Shown here: piece after piece, positions 1 to 18,200 of the stretch
How positions within the stretch are numbered: the first letter of the stretch is position 1
Layout of the letters: each line of letters starts with the position of its first letter
Source of the DNA: Elusimicrobia bacterium CG_4_9_14_3_um_filter_62_55
Lineage (GTDB): Bacteria > Elusimicrobiota > Elusimicrobia > UBA1565
DNA: 33,667 bases
Assembly: GCA_002790095.1 (NCBI GenBank)
Contig: PFUL01000010.1
Span: 1 to 33,667 of the forward strand
Direction of reading: 5' to 3'
Notes under the pieces: model-generated
What the model was told of the DNA's origin: nothing
Database searches by the model: none
The model's input: the letters and a program-made list of their open reading frames with translations, nothing else
Program-made: the position numbers and the translations under genes

Positions 1-85
1 TGAGTCGAATAGCTCATGCACGGTTAGAAAGGGGGGCTCAGGAAACCGGAGGCAGTGCGCCCACCGGCGCCTGAGCCCTACCAAT
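1..85 (+). mobile_element. 3' end of a group II intron (part of domain V, domain VI)
   Basis: Bases 1-26 fit the 3' two-thirds of a group II intron domain V: an upper stem TGAG/CTCA (1-4 with 13-16) capped by a small loop containing CGAA, a short bulge, then CACGGTT (19-25), which is the usual 3' strand of the lower stem; its 5' partner would lie outside the window. A short purine linker leads to a domain VI-like helix, GGGCTCAGG (34-42) with CCTGAGCCC (70-78), followed by TACC. A80 could be the bulged branch-point adenosine, which would put the 3' splice site at about 85. The intron-encoded reverse transcriptase would be upstream, off the window. Alternatively this is only a stem-loop. The exact 3' boundary is uncertain. 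Confidence 0.5.
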
Positions 86-809
86 GGGAGTCCCCAAACC
101 CACGGATCGAAAGGCGCCGCGAGGCGCCGAGACTTCCTGTCTGCTTTGCGCGGAGGCGTCCTTCGGCCCGTTTACTGGAGTCCCGACGAAAACCGTCGGC
201 TCGATGAACGACGGGCGCGCCGCTTGCCGGTATAAGCGCGGTCAAGTTCTTTTTCAGGAAGGGAATCCTCCTCATGGCGTGTTCTGCATTCGCCGCGGGT
301 TGGTGAAGCTGCTCCGTTACGGACGCGACGGGGTTGAGCATATCGTCGGACTCGCCGGACCGGGAGACCTCGTCGGACATTGCGCGCATTTGACGGGAGG
401 GCCGCTCGATCACGGCGCGGAGGCCGCGACCGAGCTGGAGGTCTGCCATTTAACCGAGGCCGCCTACGCTTGCGCGCTCAACAAGGAGCCCGCGCTGCTC
501 AAGCATGCGGCGGCCGCCGTCGCCCGCGAGTTGGGGGAGATGAGAAACCGCTGGATCGAACGCAGCGAGAAAACGGTCCCGGAGCGCCTGCTCGAACTTC
601 TGGTCAGGCTTCCGCGCAAGAAAAAGGAGGGCGGATTATTCGTCGAGGTTCCGCTCAGCCGGCAGGAACTGGCCTCGTACTTGGGGACCGCGCCGGAAAC
701 CGTCATGAGAGGACTCAAGAAACTGGCCGACGCCGGCTGCATCGCAACCCACGGGCGCACCATTCGACTGCTTGTGGACTCGAACGAAGAGCGGAGCACT
801 TATGCCTGA
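84..809 (+). CDS. Crp/Fnr-family transcriptional regulator, FNR-like
   Basis: A 241-residue one-component regulator. The cyclic-nucleotide-binding-type beta-roll spans about residues 48-135, followed by a dimerisation helix and a winged helix-turn-helix at about 190-212 (SRQELASYLGTAPETVMRGL), the typical Crp/Fnr recognition element. The N-terminus has a C19-x2-C22 pair, and C121 lies where E. coli FNR has its essential C122, so an oxygen- or redox-sensing Fe-S cluster is possible. The third N-terminal cysteine of FNR, expected near residue 28, is absent; C48, C68 and C100 are other candidates. The start at 84 is uncertain because it abuts the presumed intron end; an ATG at 204 would remove the CxxC. 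The gene overlaps the next by 8 bases and probably regulates its own operon. Confidence 0.85.
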   Translation: MGVPKPTDRKAPRGAETSCLLCAEASFGPFTGVPTKTVGSMNDGRAACRYKRGQVLFQEGNPPHGVFCIRRGLVKLLRYGRDGVEHIVGLAGPGDLVGHCAHLTGGPLDHGAEAATELEVCHLTEAAYACALNKEPALLKHAAAAVARELGEMRNRWIERSEKTVPERLLELLVRLPRKKKEGGLFVEVPLSRQELASYLGTAPETVMRGLKKLADAGCIATHGRTIRLLVDSNEERSTYA

Positions 810-1107
810 GCGACTTGAGTGGAGCGTCGACGCCGAGGTCTATTCACGGGAAACCGTGTTTGCCTCCTGCCGCCGCTGGTCCGCGGAGGCCTCGTTTAAG
901 ATCACGAAGAAAGGGAAAAAGCTCTGGCGCGTCGCCGCCGCGGCGAAGCCCGGCGTATCCAAGGAGCGCCTGGCGGAAATTCACGATGGATTCGAAGACG
1001 AGGCGATGCATCAGGAACTCCGCGCCGGGGCGCTGCGAGACGCGGGGAAGGTCCGTGAGGCCGTGATCCTGCGGGCGCTGCTATCGGCGTCCCAGGATCC
1101 GCAATGA
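802..1107 (+). CDS. hxsD: HxsD-like protein of a His-Xaa-Ser-type system
   Basis: A 101-residue protein starting at ATG 802, inside the end of the regulator gene, with GGAG five bases ahead. It resembles HxsD: an N-terminal stretch with 'VYSRETVFASCRRW' (the family has a tyrosine-containing helix here), a short beta region, and a C-terminal helix 'HQELRAGALRDAGKVREAV' that parallels the LLNDYxLRE-type signature of the family. HxsD occurs with the radical SAM maturases HxsB and HxsC; its biochemical role is not established. It overlaps the following hxsB-like gene by ATGA at 1104-1107, so the two are translationally coupled. The assignment rests on motif resemblance plus the HxsB-like neighbour. 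Confidence 0.65.
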   Translation: MPERLEWSVDAEVYSRETVFASCRRWSAEASFKITKKGKKLWRVAAAAKPGVSKERLAEIHDGFEDEAMHQELRAGALRDAGKVREAVILRALLSASQDPQ

Positions 1108-2534
1108 GTCGTCCGGCCCCGTTCAACTTCCGGCTTCGAGGCGACCGGGTGTTGATTTCCAACGATTTCGGACATTTCCTCTGGCTCGACGAGGAGGCCT
1201 TCTCCGCCTTTGCGAAAGGGACGCTGCCGGAGAGCGACCCGCGGTTCGGGGAGTTGTGCGCCAAGGGGTTCATGGCCGAACGGATGGATTTGACCGCCTT
1301 GACCGAACGTTGGCGCGCGCGGAACACTCATCTTTGGGACGCCTCCTGCCTTCATATCCTCGTCGTTACGCGCAACTGCAACATGCGCTGCGTGTACTGC
1401 CACGCGCAGGCCCAATCGGGTTCGCAGTGGGACATGAGCGAGGCGACGGCGGCGAAGATCGTTGATCGAGTCTTCGAGACGCCGAACAAGGTTTTGACGA
1501 TCGAGTTTCAAGGCGGAGAGCCGCTGACGAACTTCCCGGTGGTTCTCTTTGTCGCCGACCGCGCCAGGAGACTCGCCAAGAAGACCGGCAAGGAACTGCG
1601 CTTGAGCCTGATCACCAATTTGAGTCTGATGGACGAGGAGAAGTATGCGGCCCTCCGCGAGCGGAACATCGAAATTTGCAGTTCGCTGGACGGCCCCGCC
1701 GCCTTGCACGACGCGAACCGTCTCCTCTTCGGGGGCTCCAGCTATCGCCGCGTGATCCGGTGGTGGAATCGGCTGCGCCAAGACGGCGTCGTCCCCGCCG
1801 CGCTGCTGACGGTCACGCGAAAGACGCTCGATCACGCGGACGCGGTGGTCGAGGAATACCGCAAACGGGGCGCGACCTCGATCGCTCTGCGGCCGTTGAA
1901 CCCGTTGGGATACGCGAAGACGGTTTGGAACAAGATCGGCTACACGCCGGAGGAGTTCCTGGCGTTTTACCGCCGGGCGCTCGACCGCGTGATCGCGGCA
2001 AACCGGCGAGGAAGGATATTTCCGGAAACGACGGCGAAGGTATTTCTGACGAAGGCGCTGGCCGCGCGAGAACCGAATCACATGGACCTGAGATCGCCGT
2101 GCGGGGCCGGGATCGGGCAGATCGCCTATGATTATGACGGCGAGATTTATTCGTGCGACGAGGGGCGCCTGCTGCGGGCGATGGGAGACGATCTCTTTCA
2201 CCTCGGGCATGTGGACGCGATGGGACCGAAGGAATGCGCGCTGCATCCTACGATCCGCACGCTGGCGCAGGCCTCGTCGTTGGACGCCCAGTCGGGGTGT
2301 TCCCGCTGCGTGTACAAACCGACCTGCGGCGTCTGCCCGCTGTTGGAATACGTCGAGAACGGGGATCTCTTCACGCGCGCGCCGGATTCGCGGCGGTGCC
2401 GGATCCTGATGGGAATCCAAGACGACCTGTTCGAGCGTTTGCGTGATCCCCGCCAGCGCAAGGTTCTCGAAACCTGGGTGGATGGGGAGATGGAGCGCCG
2501 CGGCGACCCCGCCGCGCTCTATCAAAGGACCTGA
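1104..2534 (+). CDS. hxsB: HxsB-type radical SAM/SPASM maturase
   Basis: A 476-residue radical SAM enzyme. The N-terminal 90 residues form a cofactor-free domain of the kind seen in HxsB. The 4Fe-4S/SAM motif is C92-x3-C96-x2-C99, followed by the GGEP motif. The C-terminal third carries many cysteines in a SPASM-like arrangement: 'SPCGAGIGQ', 'YSCDEGRLL' and a GCSRC...CGVC...C series, which would hold auxiliary Fe-S clusters. Such enzymes modify ribosomally made peptides; HxsB is known by association with His-Xaa-Ser repeat peptides, and its exact reaction is unknown to me. ATGA overlap with the HxsD-like gene upstream supports a functional pair. No HxsC and no repeat peptide lies beside it. 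Confidence 0.8.
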   Translation: MSRPAPFNFRLRGDRVLISNDFGHFLWLDEEAFSAFAKGTLPESDPRFGELCAKGFMAERMDLTALTERWRARNTHLWDASCLHILVVTRNCNMRCVYCHAQAQSGSQWDMSEATAAKIVDRVFETPNKVLTIEFQGGEPLTNFPVVLFVADRARRLAKKTGKELRLSLITNLSLMDEEKYAALRERNIEICSSLDGPAALHDANRLLFGGSSYRRVIRWWNRLRQDGVVPAALLTVTRKTLDHADAVVEEYRKRGATSIALRPLNPLGYAKTVWNKIGYTPEEFLAFYRRALDRVIAANRRGRIFPETTAKVFLTKALAAREPNHMDLRSPCGAGIGQIAYDYDGEIYSCDEGRLLRAMGDDLFHLGHVDAMGPKECALHPTIRTLAQASSLDAQSGCSRCVYKPTCGVCPLLEYVENGDLFTRAPDSRRCRILMGIQDDLFERLRDPRQRKVLETWVDGEMERRGDPAALYQRT

Positions 2535-2536
2535 AC

Positions 2537-3454
2537 ATGCTCGACGCCGTCAAGCGCATCGACATCAAGCTGGGCTTTTCCTGCAACAACCGCTGCCGCT
2601 TTTGCGTGCAGGGCGACAAGCGGGAACGTTTCCAATCCCGTCCGCTGGAACGCGTTTTAACGGATCTGCGCGAGGGCCGGGAGGGCGGGGCGTGCGAGGT
2701 GGTTTTGACGGGGGGAGAACCTACTTTGCAGCCGACGTTGCTGCAGGCGATTCGCGAAGCGAAGCGATTGGGATACTCCAACATCCAGGTCCAGACCAAT
2801 GGAAGACGCTTTTTCTACGGGAATTTCTGCGACGAACTCATCGAGGCGGGGGCCAACGAATTCGCTCCCGCCGTCCACGGGTCGCGCCCGGAAATCCACG
2901 ATTATCTGACGCGGGCGCCGGGATCCTGGGCTCAGACGGTCGGGGGCATCCGGAACCTGAAGCGCCGCGGGATGCGCGTGTCCGTAAATACGGTCGTGAC
3001 GCGGGGGAACTACCGGGATCTCCCGGAGATCGCCCGCCTGCTCGTGAAGCTGCGGGTGCGGCTCTTTCAGTTCGCCTTCGTTCACGAGGTGGGAGAAGCC
3101 GGGAAGAACAGCCGGTGGCTGACCGCGCGCTATTCGCGCTGCGTGCCGTTCATTCACGAGGGCCTGCGAATCGCCCGCGAGGCGGACACCCCGAGCTTCA
3201 CCGAGGCCGTCCCGCTGTGCTTTATGCGGGGATATGAGAATCACGTCGCGGAGCGCGTGATGCCCCGCACCAAAATCCACGACGCTGAGGGGACAATCGC
3301 CGATTACACGCGCTACCGGCTGGGCGAGGGGAAAACGAAGGGCCCGCCCTGCGAAACCTGCCGGCGGGAAAATCGCTGCGAGGGACCGTGGCGCGAATAC
3401 CCCGAGCAATTCGGTTGGAAGGAGTTCGTTCCCTTTACGGAGGATCCATGCTGA
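2537..3454 (+). CDS. Radical SAM enzyme with C-terminal cysteine cluster
   Basis: A 305-residue radical SAM protein, starting two bases after the hxsB stop and preceded by AAAGGA. The SAM-cluster motif is C16-x3-C20-x2-C23, followed by a GGEP motif. Near the C-terminus C272-x2-C275-x5-C281 followed by EGPWREY probably binds a second Fe-S cluster; this ending recurs in several uncharacterised radical SAM families. It sits where HxsC would be expected in a classical His-Xaa-Ser locus, but its cysteine motif context (NNRCRFCVQGD) differs from HxsC, so I do not give it that name. Its stop overlaps the start of the next gene. Substrate unknown; role inferred from its position in the operon. Confidence 0.8.
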   Translation: MLDAVKRIDIKLGFSCNNRCRFCVQGDKRERFQSRPLERVLTDLREGREGGACEVVLTGGEPTLQPTLLQAIREAKRLGYSNIQVQTNGRRFFYGNFCDELIEAGANEFAPAVHGSRPEIHDYLTRAPGSWAQTVGGIRNLKRRGMRVSVNTVVTRGNYRDLPEIARLLVKLRVRLFQFAFVHEVGEAGKNSRWLTARYSRCVPFIHEGLRIAREADTPSFTEAVPLCFMRGYENHVAERVMPRTKIHDAEGTIADYTRYRLGEGKTKGPPCETCRRENRCEGPWREYPEQFGWKEFVPFTEDPC

Positions 3455-4404
3455 AAAACGAGGACGACCTGTCGTGGCTGGCGCGCAAGGCCGACGCTTT
3501 GCGCACGGAGGACTCTTTGGAGACGCGCAAGGAGGACGAACGGATCAGGGCCCGGGTGGACTCTTTGCTGTTTTCACTCAAGGTGGAGGGGGTCCTCGGT
3601 TCTCTCGAGGACCGGACGATGTACACGAAGCGTCTCCCCCCGGGATGCGTCGGCTGCCTCGACGGGGAAGGGAGCAACCTTTACGTGACCGGCAAATGCA
3701 CGCGCGACTGCTTCTTCTGCTTCAACACGAAACCGCGGACCGATGAGACGGTCGTGCATGGAATTAAAATCGCGGAGCCGGAAGAGGCGGCCGCGATCGT
3801 GGAGCGGTTCGGGCTTACCAGCATCGGGATCAGCGGCGGGGAACCGCTCCTATATCCGGAGCGCGTCGTGCGCATCCTTCGTTCGCTGCGGAGCCTGAAA
3901 AGGCCTCTTCGCATCGATCTCTATACCAACGGGGATTTGGCCTCCGACGAACGACTCGAAGAGCTCAAGAGCGCCGGTCTCGACAGCCTCCGGTTCAATG
4001 GGGTCGCCCGAGAGTTTGATCTTGAACCCGTTTTCCGCGCGCTCCGGGTCTTTCCGGAGACGACCGTCGAGATACCGGTCGTCCCCAAACGGATGGATGA
4101 GTTGAAGGAGATGGTCCTCGCGCTGGACCGGGGGGGCGTGCCGTTCTTGAACATCCACGAGCTTTTCGCCTGCCGTGAGAACGACGCGCGCGTCGCGGGG
4201 CGGGGCTACGCCGGGAAAGAGGGCGCTCAGAGCGAGACGCTTCAATGGAAGCCCGTCGCCGAGGGGGAGGCCGCCGCGTTGGAGCTCTTGCTCTTCTCGC
4301 TTCGAAACGCTAAAACCCTTTCGACGTACTACTGTTCCTGCCGCACGCAGGAACTGATCGGACGCCGCGGGCTCGAGCGAAGGCTCTCGGACCCCCGCCC
4401 CTGA
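3448..4404 (+). CDS. Radical SAM protein resembling the PFL-activase-like COG2108 group
   Basis: A 318-residue protein starting at ATG 3448 behind GGAGG; the upstream in-frame extension lies inside the previous gene and is not needed. The radical SAM motif is C84-x3-C88-x2-C91. It is preceded by an unusual C67-x2-C70 pair and followed by a SGGEP motif; near the C-terminus 'YYCSCRTQ' gives C296 and C298. The combination GCxxC...TGKCxxxCFFC...YCS recalls the uncharacterised COG2108 proteins related to pyruvate formate-lyase activating enzyme. It is the third radical SAM enzyme in a row and is coupled to its predecessor by overlap (3448-3454). No substrate can be read from the sequence. Confidence 0.75.
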   Translation: MLKNEDDLSWLARKADALRTEDSLETRKEDERIRARVDSLLFSLKVEGVLGSLEDRTMYTKRLPPGCVGCLDGEGSNLYVTGKCTRDCFFCFNTKPRTDETVVHGIKIAEPEEAAAIVERFGLTSIGISGGEPLLYPERVVRILRSLRSLKRPLRIDLYTNGDLASDERLEELKSAGLDSLRFNGVAREFDLEPVFRALRVFPETTVEIPVVPKRMDELKEMVLALDRGGVPFLNIHELFACRENDARVAGRGYAGKEGAQSETLQWKPVAEGEAAALELLLFSLRNAKTLSTYYCSCRTQELIGRRGLERRLSDPRP

Positions 4405-4415
4405 CGGAGGCTGTT

Positions 4416-5303
4416 ATGAACCATTGGAAGTGCCGGAAGATCGCCGCGGCGGTGGACTTATCCGAGCCTTCACTGGCCGCGCTGGAGACCGCGAAGGGAT
4501 TGGCCCGCCGCTGGAAGGCGTCGCTGGAACTCGTCTATGTGTTCGAATATCCGCCTGCCTACGGCTTCGGCGGGGAGGAGACGCTCGCGTTGCGCAGTCA
4601 ATGGCAGGAACACGGCGCCTGGGTGCGCGAGGAACTCCTCAAACGGATGACGGATTTTCCCAAAAACCGCTGCCGCTGCAAGGTCCTCGAGGGGAACGCG
4701 GCGTTGGTGCTCGAACGCTTTACGAAAAGGCAAGCGGTGGATCTGCTGGTCACCGGGACCCACGGGTATACCGGCGTAAGGCACGCGCTCTACGGCTCGG
4801 TGGCGGAAAGCCTCGTCCGTTCTTTGAAGGTTCCCGTCTTAACCGTTCGCGCGGGGCAGCCTCTCACCGTTCCGCGCGCCGTACTCCTCCCGTTCAACCA
4901 GGCCCGGCACGCGGAGGACGCGCTCTTGGCCGGGTTTGCCTGGTGCGAGGCGTTCGGCGCGCGGGCCGTCGTGATGCAGATCGTGGAAGATCCGCGCGAT
5001 GAGATGGCGACCTATGTGCAGTTGAAGGCGCACCTCGCCGTGCTCGCGGGACGCTCCTCCAAGCTGGATCCGAAGATCATCGTGCGTACGGGAAACCCGC
5101 AGCGGGCGATCCTCGAAGAGACGCGGTTCGGCGGGCACGACTTGCTGGTCCTATCGGCGCATCATAAGGCCTTTTGGCAGGATCTCGTCCTGGGGACGAC
5201 GGCCGAACGCGTCCTTCGTCACTGCGAAATTCCGGTTCTTTCGCTGCGATCGGAAGAGAAGCGGGGCGTCGTCAACAAGAAAAAGAGGGCTAAGAAGCGC
5301 TAG
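4416..5303 (+). CDS. Tandem-domain universal stress protein
   Basis: A 295-residue cytoplasmic protein with two UspA domains, about residues 5-145 and 150-275. The first has an intact nucleotide-binding signature, G-x2-G-x9-G-S (GTHG...GS), so it probably binds ATP. In the second the corresponding stretch (SAHH...GT) has lost the glycines, so that half is probably non-binding. The tail is lysine-rich. GGAGG lies six bases before ATG 4416, and the gene begins 11 bases after the radical SAM gene, so it is likely the last member of the operon that begins with the FNR-like regulator. Tandem Usp proteins often serve low-oxygen or redox stress, which would fit that regulator; this link is inference. 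Confidence 0.9.
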   Translation: MNHWKCRKIAAAVDLSEPSLAALETAKGLARRWKASLELVYVFEYPPAYGFGGEETLALRSQWQEHGAWVREELLKRMTDFPKNRCRCKVLEGNAALVLERFTKRQAVDLLVTGTHGYTGVRHALYGSVAESLVRSLKVPVLTVRAGQPLTVPRAVLLPFNQARHAEDALLAGFAWCEAFGARAVVMQIVEDPRDEMATYVQLKAHLAVLAGRSSKLDPKIIVRTGNPQRAILEETRFGGHDLLVLSAHHKAFWQDLVLGTTAERVLRHCEIPVLSLRSEEKRGVVNKKKRAKKR

Positions 5304-5321
5304 GTGCGGTTTTGTAAAAAG

Positions 5322-5360
5322 AAAGACGCCCGGTCCTCGATCGGATCGGGCGTCTTTTTT
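5322..5360. terminator. Bidirectional rho-independent terminator
   Basis: The inverted repeat AAAGACGCCCG/CGGGCGTCTTT encloses a 14-base loop and is followed by a T run on the plus strand and, read the other way, by TTTC. It closes the radical SAM-Usp operon and can also serve the converging cold-shock gene. Confidence 0.85.
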
Positions 5361-7316: not shown

Positions 7317-8153
7317 ATGAGACCGTTCTCTTTGCCGGCCGCCGTTATCATCCTTCTGTCCGCCGTTCCGGTGTTCGCCTCCGGGACGATTGAATCGATG
7401 CGCGCCGCCTCCGGGTCCGGCGTGAACGCCGCTTTCGCGGCGCTCTCGAAGGACATCTCCGTTGAGCAGGCCGCCAATTCCCGCCGTCGCCGCATCCGCA
7501 GGCTCAATCCCGCGGCGATCGACCGCAGCGAACCCTACGACTGCTCGAACCTGCCGGTCGTCGACCTCCGCAACGGGCGCCTCTACAAGAACGGGCAAGA
7601 GATCGGCCGCGCGAGCTCGTTTCAAGCGGCATGCACGGGTCAGGTCGCGTGGATGGATTCCTACGGCCGGCTGCATAAGGACGACCGAGAACTCGGCCGC
7701 GCGTCGCGCTACGAGATTTCGAAGTTCAACGGCGTCGTCGTCTGGACGGATTCCTACGGGCGGCTTCACCGCGACGAGGAGGAACTCGGACGCCATCAGA
7801 ACTATTACTTCGCCTACGCGAGCGGCGTCGTGGTCTGGACCGACAGCAGCGGCGATCTGCACCGGAACTCCGAAGAAATCGCCAGCCGCCCGCGCGACTA
7901 TAAGGTCGCGGATTTCACGGGCGACGTCGTATGGCGCGACAGTTGGGACGATCTCTATAAAAACGGCGAGAAGCTCGGCCGGGCTCAACGATACGAGGTC
8001 TCCTACCGGACCGGCGACGTCGCTTGGACCGACAGTTGGCGCGGTCTGTACAAGAACGGACGCAAGGTCGCCGACGGCGTGAACTCGTTTAGTCTGCGCT
8101 CCGACGGCATCGTGACCTGGCGCGACAGCCGCGGCGAATTGCACTACGCCTGA
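7317..8153 (+). CDS. Secreted protein with seven ~31-residue Trp/Asp repeats
   Basis: A 278-residue protein. Residues 1-21 are a signal peptide (cleavage near VFA-SG). A basic linker (RRRRIRR, about 56-62) follows. From residue 81 to the end there are six full repeats and one partial repeat of about 31 residues, consensus VxWxDSxGxLxKNGxELGRAxxY, ending each time with a Gly before the next strand. The count and length suggest a small seven-bladed propeller or a beta-solenoid; the family is not one I recognise. C76 and C106 are the only cysteines and could form a disulphide. Its gene starts behind GAGGAAT and ends 20 bases before a strong terminator, so it is monocistronic. Confidence 0.8.
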   Translation: MRPFSLPAAVIILLSAVPVFASGTIESMRAASGSGVNAAFAALSKDISVEQAANSRRRRIRRLNPAAIDRSEPYDCSNLPVVDLRNGRLYKNGQEIGRASSFQAACTGQVAWMDSYGRLHKDDRELGRASRYEISKFNGVVVWTDSYGRLHRDEEELGRHQNYYFAYASGVVVWTDSSGDLHRNSEEIASRPRDYKVADFTGDVVWRDSWDDLYKNGEKLGRAQRYEVSYRTGDVAWTDSWRGLYKNGRKVADGVNSFSLRSDGIVTWRDSRGELHYA

Positions 8154-8240: not shown

Positions 8241-10286
8241 ATGCTGATCGCCTTCACCCATAATCTCAAACGCTCGGATTCCGAGGCGGAAGCGGAATTC
8301 GACGCCCCGGAGACGGTCGCCGCGATCAGCGAGGCGCTCGAGCGTCTCGGCCACAGGGTCGAGCGCATCGATGTCGGGGGACCGCCCTCGCGCGTCCTTT
8401 CCCGCTTGGAGGCCCTGGTTCCGGACCTGGTGTTCAATACGGCAGAGGGAAGCGGAGGACGCTTTCGCGAGGCCTTTTTCCCCGCCGTGTTCGACCGTCT
8501 CGGCCTGCCCTTTACCGGCTCGGACGCGTATGTCTGCGCGCTGACGATGGACAAGGCGATGGCCAAGCGGGTCGTCTCGGAGGCCGGGGTTCCGACCCCG
8601 AAGGCCGCGCTCGTCACCGGAGAGGATTCCCTCAACGCGCTGGAGTTGTCTTTCCCCGTCATTTTGAAGCCGAACTTCGAAGGCAGTTCGGTCGGCGTCA
8701 GCGCCGATTCCATCATCAAAACCAAGGAGGCGCTCGCGCCCGCGATCCGGGCGATGCTCGCGCGCTTCCCGGACGGCGTTCTCGTCGAGGAATTCGTGGT
8801 CGGCCGGGATTTCAGCGTCGGATGGTTGGAACGGGCGCCGGGTTCGGGAATCCTCGCTCCGGCGGAATACGAGTTCGCTCCGGGATCGGCGGGTGAACCC
8901 GGATTCGAGATTTACGACTTTAAATTGAAGAACGAAAACCCGGACGCCGTGACGGTGCGGGTTCCGGCGAACCTGGAGGCGGGTGTCCTCGCCGAATTGG
9001 AAAGATTCGCCGGCATCGCGGTACGCACGCTCGGTTTGCGCGATCTGGCTCGGGTCGATTTCCGCGTCACCGCCGAGGGCGCGATCCGCTTTATCGAAGT
9101 GAACGCCCTTCCGAGTTTGGAGCCCGGCGCGAGTCTCTACGAGGCCGCGAAACTTCGCGGCCTTGATTCGATCGATCGGGTGCTGGAGTCCGTCGTCTCC
9201 AGCGCCGCGCTGCGCTTCGGCGCGGATCTTCGCCCGAGGACCGCGCGGCGTTCCCGGAGGGCTCTGCGAGTCGGATTCACCTACAACGAAAAGCGCGTGA
9301 CCCCGGGCTACGATCCCGTGACCGATGCCGAAGTGGAATTCGACGCTCCGAAAACGCTCAACTCGATCCGGGGCGCCATCGCGTCCTTCGGCCATACGGT
9401 GATCGACCTCGAGGCCACTCCGGATCTCTCTCACAAGCTCATCGACGCCGACGTGGACGTCGTTTTCAACATCGCCGAGGGGATTCAGGGACGAAACCGC
9501 GAGTCTCAGGTACCGGCGCTCTTGGAACTGGTGGGAATTCCCTACACCGGTTCGGACGCGACGACCTTGGCGTTGACGCTGGATAAAGGACTCGCGAAGC
9601 GTCTCGTGTCCGAAGTGGGCGTTCGGACGCCCGCGTTCCAGTTGTTCATCACCGGGAAGGAGAAGCTGTCCCCCGGGTTGAGCTTCCCGCTGGTCGTCAA
9701 GCCGTTGGGGGAGGGAAGTTCGAAAGGGGTGCATCGCTCCAGTGTCGTCTACGATGAAGCGGCGCTCCGTAAGGAAACGGGGGAATTGATCGACCGCTAC
9801 GGCCAGACCGTGATCGCCGAGGAGTTCCTTCCCGGACGCGAATTCACCGTCGCGCTGTTGGGTGAGAAGCGGCCTCGGGTGCTTCCGCCTATGGAGATCG
9901 TGTTTTCACCGGCCGCCGGCAAGGACCCGGTATACACCTACGCGCATAAGCTCGATGTGAACGAGGAGGTCCGCTACGAAGCGCCGGCGAAATTGGAACC
10001 CGCGCTTCGCGCCCGATTGGAGCGCGCCTCCCGGGCCGCCTTCCGGGCTCTCGGCTGCCGGGACGTTGCCCGCGTCGATTTACGCCTCGACGCGAAAGGG
10101 CACGTGAATTTTATCGAATGCAACCCGCTCCCAGGCCTCACGCCGGGCTGGTCGGATCTATGCCTGATCGCCGAGGGCGCCGGAATGGATTACCCGTCCT
10201 TGATCCGTGAAATTATGGATCCCGCGATTCGGCGCTACAAAGACGCGACCAAGCAGCTTCTGAAAGCGGAAACTCCCGCGAGTTGA
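8241..10286 (+). CDS. Fused double D-alanine-D-alanine-ligase-like ATP-grasp protein
   Basis: At 681 residues this is about twice the length of a normal Ddl ligase. Two homologous halves (about 1-325 and 345-670) each show the Ddl layout: an N-terminal Rossmann-like part ending in FNTAEG / FNIAEG, then PFTGSDA...LTMDK / PYTGSDA...LTLDK, the ATP-grasp core (ILKPNFEGSSVGV / VVKPLGEGSSKGV), and the metal-binding ending IEVNALPSLEPG / IECNPLPGLTPG. The second half keeps the Ddl-like LPGLTPG; in the first the glycine is Ser (LPSLEPG). Both halves keep many ligase residues, so both may act, perhaps on different substrates. True DdlB would be single-domain. It lies one base from an aminopeptidase gene, suggesting joint synthesis and breakdown of a small (D-)peptide; that is inference. 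Confidence 0.9.
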   Translation: MLIAFTHNLKRSDSEAEAEFDAPETVAAISEALERLGHRVERIDVGGPPSRVLSRLEALVPDLVFNTAEGSGGRFREAFFPAVFDRLGLPFTGSDAYVCALTMDKAMAKRVVSEAGVPTPKAALVTGEDSLNALELSFPVILKPNFEGSSVGVSADSIIKTKEALAPAIRAMLARFPDGVLVEEFVVGRDFSVGWLERAPGSGILAPAEYEFAPGSAGEPGFEIYDFKLKNENPDAVTVRVPANLEAGVLAELERFAGIAVRTLGLRDLARVDFRVTAEGAIRFIEVNALPSLEPGASLYEAAKLRGLDSIDRVLESVVSSAALRFGADLRPRTARRSRRALRVGFTYNEKRVTPGYDPVTDAEVEFDAPKTLNSIRGAIASFGHTVIDLEATPDLSHKLIDADVDVVFNIAEGIQGRNRESQVPALLELVGIPYTGSDATTLALTLDKGLAKRLVSEVGVRTPAFQLFITGKEKLSPGLSFPLVVKPLGEGSSKGVHRSSVVYDEAALRKETGELIDRYGQTVIAEEFLPGREFTVALLGEKRPRVLPPMEIVFSPAAGKDPVYTYAHKLDVNEEVRYEAPAKLEPALRARLERASRAAFRALGCRDVARVDLRLDAKGHVNFIECNPLPGLTPGWSDLCLIAEGAGMDYPSLIREIMDPAIRRYKDATKQLLKAETPAS

Positions 10287-15262: not shown

Positions 15263-18200
15263 ACCTGGGCGATCTCTTCCTCGACGACGCGCCGCCGTCG
15301 CGAGCGCGCGGTCCAGTCGATTCCAACTCGAAACAAGCAGGGGATCATCACCAAGGTGATCGCAGTGCCGAAGACGAGACCCCACGCCAATGAGAGCATC
15401 ATCTCGGCGAGCATCGCGTCGTAGCCGGCGAAGCCGTAGGCGGTGGGCAGCACGCCGGCGACCGTGGTCAAGGTCGTCAGCGTGACCGCGCGCAGGCGCG
15501 TCTGCGACGCCCGGGCGATGGCCCGGTCGAAGGTCTCGGCCGGCGCGTCCGGGTCCACGTCGTCGTTGAGCTTGCAGAGCATGACGATGGAATCGTTGAT
15601 GACGACTCCCACCAAGCCCAGCACGCCGACCGCCGCGTAGAAGCCGAAGAGAACCTTCCCGTGCGCCCAGAACGCCATCACCACCCCGACGATCCCGAAC
15701 GGGATCGCGACCATGATGACCAACGGCTGCTTCACCGAGTCGAAGAGAATCGCGAGGATCGCGTAAATCAAAAACAGGGCCAACAGCCCGGCGTTGCGGA
15801 AATCGCTGCTCGACTCCCGCGTGTCCTTGATCTCCCCGTCGAAGGCGAAATTGCCGTTGGGATGGCGGCTCAGGATGTCGGGAAAGACCTTCGTTTCCAT
15901 GAACTCCGCCGCGTCCAGCGGGGTCATTTTCGCCCCCTCGCGGATGTCGGCGTCGACGACGGTGGTCCGCTTGAACTCGCGCCTCGCGATCGAGGTGGGG
16001 GAGCGCACCTTCTCAACGCTCACGAGATCGCCGAGCGGAACCAGGTAGTTGCGCTGATTCTCAACAGGAATCGCGAGCACCTTCTCGATGTTGTTCTTCG
16101 CCCCGTCGGTGGTCGTCAGGCGGACGCGAATCTCTTCGTCTCCATTGGAGAACTGAAACAAGACCGTCCCCTCCAAGGCGGCGCGAAAGGTCTTGGCGAC
16201 GTCGCCGGGAGCGATCGAGAGCCGCTTCACCTTCTCCCGATTGATGCGCACTCGGTATTCGTCGGTAAAGAATCCCTCCTCGATCTCGGGGTCGGCGATG
16301 TCCGGATGCGCGTGCAGCGCGTCGCGCAATTCGCGAGACATCTTCTGGCGGGCCGGGTCGTCATTGTTCTGGACTAAAATGGTCAGCGGGCTGCCGGATT
16401 CGGAACCCCAGCGGCTTTTGCTGAAGCGGAGCTTCGAAAAGCCCTTTAGCCGCGCGAGTTCCTTTTCGAACTCCTGAACCAGCGCGTCGGCCGACTTCTC
16501 CCGCTGATCCTTGGGAACGATCTCAATGCCCAGGCGGAAGTTGTTCTGCTGCGCCGCCCCGCCGCGCCGGCTGCGGCCGACGCTGGTGCGGGTGCCGACG
16601 ACCTCCTTGCCGATGTAGGGGGTGAAGAGATCTTCGATTTCCTGAACCTTTCGTGCGGTGTCCAGCCGCGTCATCCCTTGCGCGGTAAAGCCCGTCAAGG
16701 TGATGTCGCGGGTCTCTTCGTTGGGAAACATCACGAATTTCATCTTGTTTTTCGCGCTCCAGCCGCAAAACGCGATCAGACCCAGAGAGAGGGCGAAGAA
16801 GGCCCAGCGCCAAGGAAGCACGCGTTCGAGGGCGCGGCCGTACCAGCGTTCGACCGCGTCGAACCAATGGGCGTGGGGCTCCAGCGCCCGCTTCGCCTTG
16901 GATCCCGGCAGGTCGAGCAGCATGTGCCCGGGCAGCAGGTAAAGCGATTCAAAGAGGCTCGCCGCGAGCACCAGGAAGATGATCGGGGGGATGAAGCTGA
17001 CGAACTTGCCGAAATGTCCGGAGAAGAAGAAAAGCGGGATGAACGCGACGCAGGTGGTGGCGACCGAGGCGACGACGGGGAGGGTCACGTACGCGGTGGC
17101 CCGGACGACCGCGACGGAGCGCTCCACCCCCTTCTGCGCCTCGCGGGTGATGTTTTCCGCGACGACGATGGCGTCGTCGACGATGATGCCCATCACGATG
17201 ATGACCGCCGCCAGCGTCGTTCCGTTGATGGTGTAGCCCAGCAAAGCCCCCCCGATCATCGCGAAACAGAGCGTGAAGGGGATTCCCATCGCCACCCAGA
17301 TGCCTGAGCGCTTGTCTAGAAAAGTGAACAACGACAGCAGGATGAGGATGAAGCCGAGCGCGCCGTTTTGCGCGATCAGATTGATGCGGTTGCGCACGTC
17401 GAAGGATTCGTCGTCGAGAGCGACGGCGCGGATGGAGCTGCCTTTCAGCGTCGACTCTCGAAAACGCGCGAGGGCCTTGCGGACCGAGTCGATCGAGTCG
17501 AGAATTCCGGAGGAGGCGGTTTTCACGACCGAGAACATCACGGCCTCGTGGCCGTTTACCTTCAGGATGTGGTCCGGTTTCTCGAACCCGGCCTCGATTT
17601 CGGCGACCTCGCGAAGCCGGACGACCCGGCCTTCAAACCCGCCTTGGACCGCGAGTTCGCCCAGTTTCTGCGGCGTGTCGAGTTCCGAGAGCAGCGTAAC
17701 CTTGGGTTCCCCTTCGGACTCGATGGTTCCGGCCGGCTGGCGGATGTGGTTGGCGCGGATTTGGGTTTGAATCGAATTAAATGGAATCTTGAACTTGACC
17801 AAATCCGGCGGCCGGACCCGGATCTGCACCTCTTCCTGGAGATAGCCCTGGCGGTCGATGCTGTTGACCTCTTTCAGCGGGAGTAGGCGGTTTTCCAGCG
17901 CGAGGGAGTAGCGCTGCAATTTTTGGCGGTCGTCGATCGAGAGCAGGTTCTTCCCTTCATGGTAAAGCGCGACGTCCATGATCGCCTTCTTGTCGGTCTT
18001 AAAGACGCGTACGACGGGATCATCAACGACCTCTTCAGGCAAACGCGTGTCGAGCACCGCGTTGCGCACCTCCGCGACGACCTCATCGACGTTGGAGAGT
18101 TCCGGCTCCAGTTCCACCCGGACGCTGCCTTGGCCGACGCTCGCGGTGCTGTCGAGCGAGTGGACGCCGTCGATGCCGCGGATCTTCTCTTCGAGCGGCT

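Follow-up and report, generated by a model that had tools for sequence, protein, structure and literature searches.

Organization of the operon

The window analysed here comprises the first 33,667 of the 46,481 bases of contig C12 (PFUL01000010.1) of Elusimicrobia bacterium CG_4_9_14_3_um_filter_62_55. Near its start lies an operon in which HxsB and an HxsD-like protein, both known from the His-Xaa-Ser (Hxs) systems, are combined with two further radical SAM enzymes, here called rS2 and rS3. Six genes lie head-to-tail on the forward strand, with overlaps or short gaps between them. The first (84..809) encodes a CRP/FNR-family transcription regulator, which consists of a cNMP-binding domain (PF00027) and a Crp helix-turn-helix (PF13545). 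It is followed by the HxsD-like protein of 101 aa (802..1107), the radical SAM/SPASM maturase HxsB (1104..2534), rS2 (2537..3454), rS3 (3448..4404), and a tandem-domain universal stress protein (Usp, 4416..5303), which was matched by PF00582 in two stretches (3e-41). The hxsD gene adjoins hxsB, with stop and start overlapping at 1104-1107 (ATGA), and rS2 starts 2 bp after HxsB. The Rho-independent terminator behind Usp (AAAGACGCCCG...CGGGCGTCTTTTTT, about 5319..5358, forward strand) was read from the sequence as a perfect 11-bp inverted repeat with a T tail, of which the terminator scanner picked up only a piece (5336-5350). The gene coordinates agree with those of an earlier note on this DNA, and together with the sequence reading they bear out its six-gene operon with overlaps, gaps and a terminator. 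The parts are of the known Hxs kind, and their arrangement, HxsD-HxsB-rS2-rS3 led by CRP and free of HxsA, is a variant.

The earlier note had proposed that an FNR-like protein controls the operon in response to oxygen or redox state. The regulator is indeed a member of the CRP/FNR family, with orthologues at the Hxs loci of four genomes of the same family (G002, G003, G005, and G007), but it reached no FNR or CRP equivalog cut-off (FNR, NF008365: 40.9 bits versus 228). In its N-terminus C19 and C22 are present, while the third Cys of the intact relatives is replaced by Thr (GPFTGV versus GPFCGL). Since the FNR cysteine set is incomplete, direct oxygen sensing is not supported.

HxsB and HxsD

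HxsB passed the family profile TIGR03978 with 450.9 bits (cut-off 370), matching positions 2-466 of 466. In an alignment of 12 sequences, C92, C96, and C99 of the CxxxCxxC motif were invariant, as were the C-terminal cysteines C333, C351, C399, C402, C408, C411, and C432. Judged by its sequence, the window HxsB is thus a certain member of the family, as the earlier note had it. In the predicted structure, residues 8-73 ahead of the radical SAM domain form three strands (E8-12, E15-19, E25-29) followed by three helices (H30-37, H46-53, H63-73), an RRE-like topology, and the model was closest in structure to CteB and anSME. On the HxsB tree, the window protein formed a long branch (1.12) within a clade of mostly HxsA4-linked HxsBs (26 of 35 rows), and the local absence of HxsA arose many times on this tree. 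HxsB homologues lacking CxxxCxxC, i.e. pseudo-radical-SAM proteins, were also observed at L066:6316-7806 (+), L054:8040-9215 (-), and L162:1234-2646 (+); two of them adjoin an HxsD and one adjoins an intact HxsB.

The HxsD assignment held in part. The match to TIGR03976 was significant (2e-9, positions 1-88 of 90), but its 37.7 bits stayed under the cut-off of 50, and by sequence the protein is best described as a divergent, sub-cut-off relative of the HxsD family. Its model showed a compact beta-alpha-beta-beta-alpha fold with high confidence (pLDDT 90.5), for which the search of the PDB returned no close fold (best E 0.0085), and no repeat or tail motif was found in the window copy. The models of the two proteins would agree with leader-guided peptide maturation by HxsB and with an accessory role for HxsD rather than that of a substrate. 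In G003 (Elusimicrobia bacterium GWA2_69_24), which belongs to the same family as the window genome and is nearest to it among the named relatives compared, two 66-aa HxsD_rel proteins (NF038315) lie between HxsD and HxsB (L047:7153-7353 and 16084-16284), one above and one below the profile cut-off.

The radical SAM pair rS2-rS3

According to the earlier note, two unrelated radical SAM proteins replace HxsC in this operon. This applies to rS3, which matched only the radical SAM core among the profiles (PF04055, 3e-15) and reached 45 bits with HxsC (TIGR03977, cut-off 267.9), but not to rS2, whose two best profiles were HxsC4 (NF038332, 153.7 bits versus a cut-off of 500) and HxsC (99.8 versus 267.9). 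By these scores rS2, which carries the motifs FCVQGDKR ... CEGPW[RK]EY, belongs to the HxsC/HxsC4 superfamily but falls outside the curated HxsC. The window copy is 51-56% identical to its homologues and is the sole rS2 orthologue of its genome. A profile search for rS2 (L156-L235) recovered the family from Elusimicrobiota, Myxococcota, Patescibacteria lineages, Omnitrophota, and Woesearchaeota, where its genes are mostly clustered with other radical SAM genes. Among 341 genomes of the phylum, 43 contained homologues of rS3, and a single-protein scan with it of named genomes gave no match. The protein carries an extra conserved CxxC ahead of the SAM cluster motif, and C67, C70, C84, C88, C91, and C296 were invariant in 25 sequences. 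On the rS3 tree, the window rS3 was nearest to the rS3s of its own family (59-64% identical), and the adjacency of rS2 and rS3 changed at least five times, which suggests that the two enzymes may be functionally coupled.

Whether rS2 and rS3 are plain pieces of an HxsA4 cluster was also considered, and this was weakened by the rS2 tree, on which the nearest rS2s lie outside Hxs loci. Separately, rS2/rS3-type radical SAM genes were observed beside nitrogenase-like NifH and NifD/K paralogues (L118:4979-13519, L160, L175, L181, and L237), together with B12-binding radical SAM proteins.

Search for an HxsA peptide

The earlier note had seen no repeat peptide around the operon. No tandem His-Xaa-Ser open reading frame was found in the window, and profile, pattern and leader searches found no HxsA4 on contig C12, the stretch beyond the contig start being outside their reach; the claim thus held as far as C12 extends. 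In the genome assembly (4.31 Mb, 95% complete), a single HxsA4 was found at C58:11965-12291 (NF038313, 70.3 bits versus a cut-off of 55), and its core holds at least eight HGS units. No HxsB lies on contig C58, which spans 17.9 kb and is truncated at one end; besides HxsA4 it encodes HxsD, a B12-binding radical SAM protein, an HExxH-type peptide beta-hydroxylase, and several radical SAMs resembling HxsC or HxsC4. The HxsB genes of the genome lie on C12, in the window, and on C67, where HxsD and HxsB (470 bits) are accompanied, divergently, by HxsD and an HxsB lacking CxxxCxxC. The classic HxsA profile TIGR03979 gave only weak matches in this genome and matched control genomes too; the HxsA4 model was the apt one.

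In relative G028, a peptide adjoining HxsB and HxsD (L236:9101-9523, minus strand) joins an HxsA4-type leader to a core of His-Gly-Asn/His-Ser-Asn repeats, and it escapes both the HxsA4 model and the HxS pattern. Because the H-G/A-S pattern missed this His-Xaa-Asn peptide, absence by pattern alone is weak, and a leader profile was therefore searched. This profile included the C58 and G028 leaders as rows and matches both by construction; with it, no second HxsA-like peptide was found in the genome.

HxsB and HxsA4 in related genomes

Across 147 related genomes, HxsB exceeded its cut-off in 51 and HxsA4 in 52, and both were present in 48 (Fisher p 3e-30, kinship not corrected for). HxsA4 lay within 15 kb of 71 of the 94 HxsB loci. 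Of the 16 loci without HxsA4 on the contig, 13 belong to genomes with HxsA4 elsewhere, and the fourteenth is that of G028, with its HxsA4-like leader fused to the His-Xaa-Asn repeat next to HxsB. The HxsB genomes without HxsA4 numbered three, G028 and two that are only 73% and 81% complete. HxsB thus seems to depend on an HxsA-like peptide encoded in the same genome.

The genes of the operon are not present in the genome of the same genus. At locus L117 of G002, from the same family, CRP is followed by a 254-aa protein, HxsD, HxsB, a 273-aa protein, a B12 radical SAM, HxsA4, an rS2-like gene, two HxsC-like genes, and rS3. The modules CRP, HxsD, HxsB, HxsA4, rS2, and rS3 stand there in the order of the window, which has all of them but HxsA4. 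In G003, rS2 lies immediately upstream of HxsD-HxsB-HxsA4. At locus L192 of G043, an operon of rS3-HxsB-rS2 adjoins genes for a copper nitrite reductase and DUF2249, with no HxsA in the locus, while the G043 genome carries HxsA4.

The contig start and neighbouring genes

Contig C12 begins inside a repeated element, group II intron-like in its features, whose 3' end (1..83, forward strand) abuts the start codon of the regulator. Its eight genomic copies all lie at contig ends, none of them assembled at full length, and a comparison with Rfam did not identify it as a group II intron. An ATG directly follows the 3' end in all eight copies, and in at least six of them it is the start codon of a long protein gene (L136-L144, other contig starts, and window 1-83), which suggests that the element inserts directly before start codons. 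As C12 starts at a contig end within this eight-copy repeat, the absence of HxsA upstream cannot be checked.

Downstream of the operon, the secreted product of 7317-8153 contains imperfect VVWTDSYGRLHRDEEELGR-type repeats, and 8241-10286 encodes a 681-aa protein of apparently two fused ATP-grasp (D-Ala-D-Ala ligase-like) domains.

Interpretation

The sole HxsA4 of the genome lies on another contig and HxsB co-occurs with HxsA4 among the relatives; we therefore favour the operon as a detached, redox/CRP-linked satellite module of an HxsA4-type His-Xaa-Ser system that acts on HxsA4 in trans, and give this reading about an even chance. The position of the window HxsB among mostly HxsA4-linked HxsBs, the gene orders of G002 and G003, the window rS2 as the sole orthologue of its genome, the lack of HxsB on C58, and the HxsB model also speak for it. 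Action in trans, the order of the steps, the chemistry and the regulation are what we infer; the data themselves show the genes present, HxsB as a family member, intact catalytic motifs, a single HxsA4 in the genome, co-occurrence of HxsB and HxsA4 at genome level, and recurrent adjacency of rS2 and rS3. The leader of the C58-encoded HxsA4 would be recognised by the RRE-like N-terminal domain of HxsB, with HxsD as an accessory protein, and HxsB would modify the His-rich repeat core. Further steps or assistance might come from the HxsC/HxsC4-like rS2 and from rS3, and the CRP-family regulator and Usp may subject these genes to control by redox state or stress. The idea of the earlier note that a distant peptide may be the substrate gains support from the single HxsA4 on C58 and from the near-constant co-occurrence of HxsB with HxsA4. 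Several points weigh against this reading. The branch of the window HxsB is long, the HxsBs of C67 could serve HxsA4 instead, and an HxsA4 may lie in the missing upstream sequence. Moreover, the window rS2 grouped with the rS2 of G036 (support 99/91), which pairs with an rS3 beside cytochrome genes, the G036 genome having neither HxsB nor HxsA4. With its nearest kin paired with rS3 in HxsB-free loci, rS2-rS3 need not serve HxsA4.

The last points lead to the main rival explanation, in which HxsB and HxsD were recruited to rS2-rS3 for a non-HxsA substrate, such as a respiratory protein or a cofactor peptide, within a CRP-controlled nitrite/nitric oxide (NO) or redox-stress regulon. Besides G036, rS2-rS3 pairs close to that of the window occur in G008 and others, and these pairs adjoin c-type cytochromes, a heme-synthase-like (AhbD-like) radical SAM, CRP, DUF2249, and RIC-type proteins; G008, like G036, has neither HxsB nor HxsA4. 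The nitrite reductase-linked, HxsA-free operon of L192, the repeated changes of rS2-rS3 adjacency, and several clusters in a sample of rS2 loci that join HxsB to rS2 without a visible HxS peptide point the same way. However, both genomes known to hold HxsB, rS2, and rS3 in an HxsA-free operon (G000 and G043) carry HxsA4, the checked genomes with only the nearest kind of rS2-rS3 pair (G036 and G008) lack HxsB, and contig C12 has no homologue of those cytochromes. We consider this recruitment rather unlikely, and it is slightly more doubtful still that HxsB was coupled more than once to the rS2-rS3 of such a regulon so that they jointly modify a non-HxsA substrate. If true, the coupling would concern HxsB, a maturase known only with His-Xaa-Ser peptides.

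The remaining explanations keep closer to the locus itself. An ordinary locus cut by the assembly, with HxsA and other Hxs genes just upstream of the contig break, would agree with the start of the window inside the eight-copy repeat and with the Hxs clusters of relatives, which can be long and multi-part. We hold it improbable, since the loci of G002, G005, and G007 with the same CRP have their Hxs genes downstream of CRP and no Hxs genes upstream, the sole HxsA4-leader peptide of this largely complete assembly is on C58, and the HxsA4 of G002 sits between HxsB and rS2, two genes that are only 2 bp apart in the window. The gene order, which is like that of a G002 cluster in reduced form, the long HxsB branch and the mobile element at the 5' end could be read as signs of an HxsA4 cluster that lost its peptide and is now decaying; this is very improbable given that all reading frames are intact, that the cysteines of the radical SAM and SPASM domains are preserved, and that the genes lie close together with translational overlaps. 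The alternative proposed in the earlier note, modification of the HxsD-like protein itself, was not upheld. HxsD is the only small protein of the operon, but its relatives accompany HxsB even where HxsA4 is present, and the predicted compact fold has no flexible core, so that we give this idea hardly any credence.

In this genome Hxs falls into separable parts, namely one peptide, several HxsB/HxsD pairs, and an enzyme-only operon with its own regulator. This permits a direct test of the role of each enzyme and of a possible action in trans. CRP, Usp and, in relatives, the nitrite/NO genes offer a testable hint of when the modified peptide is needed.

Comparison with known systems

In the open-access literature searched, no product or function was assigned to Hxs, which received passing mentions only; HxsB and HxsC are named merely as putative maturases (PMC9062424). 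With the His-Xaa-Ser systems of TIGR03976-TIGR03979 the window shares an HxsB above cut-off, an adjacent HxsD-like protein, and a radical SAM of the HxsC superfamily. It differs from them in that the locus lacks HxsA, that HxsD, rS2, and rS3 score below the family cut-offs, and that the operon adds a CRP regulator and Usp. The HxsA4/HxsC4 variant (NF038313, NF038332) is similar in that the window genome has one HxsA4, rS2 scored best to HxsC4, and the relatives hold HxsD-HxsB-HxsA4 with arrays of HxsC-like radical SAMs. Here, however, HxsA4 is on another contig and rS2 remains far under the HxsC4 cut-off (154 versus 500 bits). The rS3-rS2 pairs beside cytochrome and NO/nitrite genes (L156-L159, G036, and G008) resemble the window in that rS2 adjoins rS3 with CRP nearby, but their loci contain no HxsB and their rS3s are only about 42-45% identical to that of the window. 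Although only about 20% identical to the window HxsB, the SCIFF maturase CteB (PDB 5wgg) and the anaerobic sulfatase-maturating enzyme anSME (4k36-4k39) share with its model the combination of radical SAM and SPASM domains used in peptide and protein modification.

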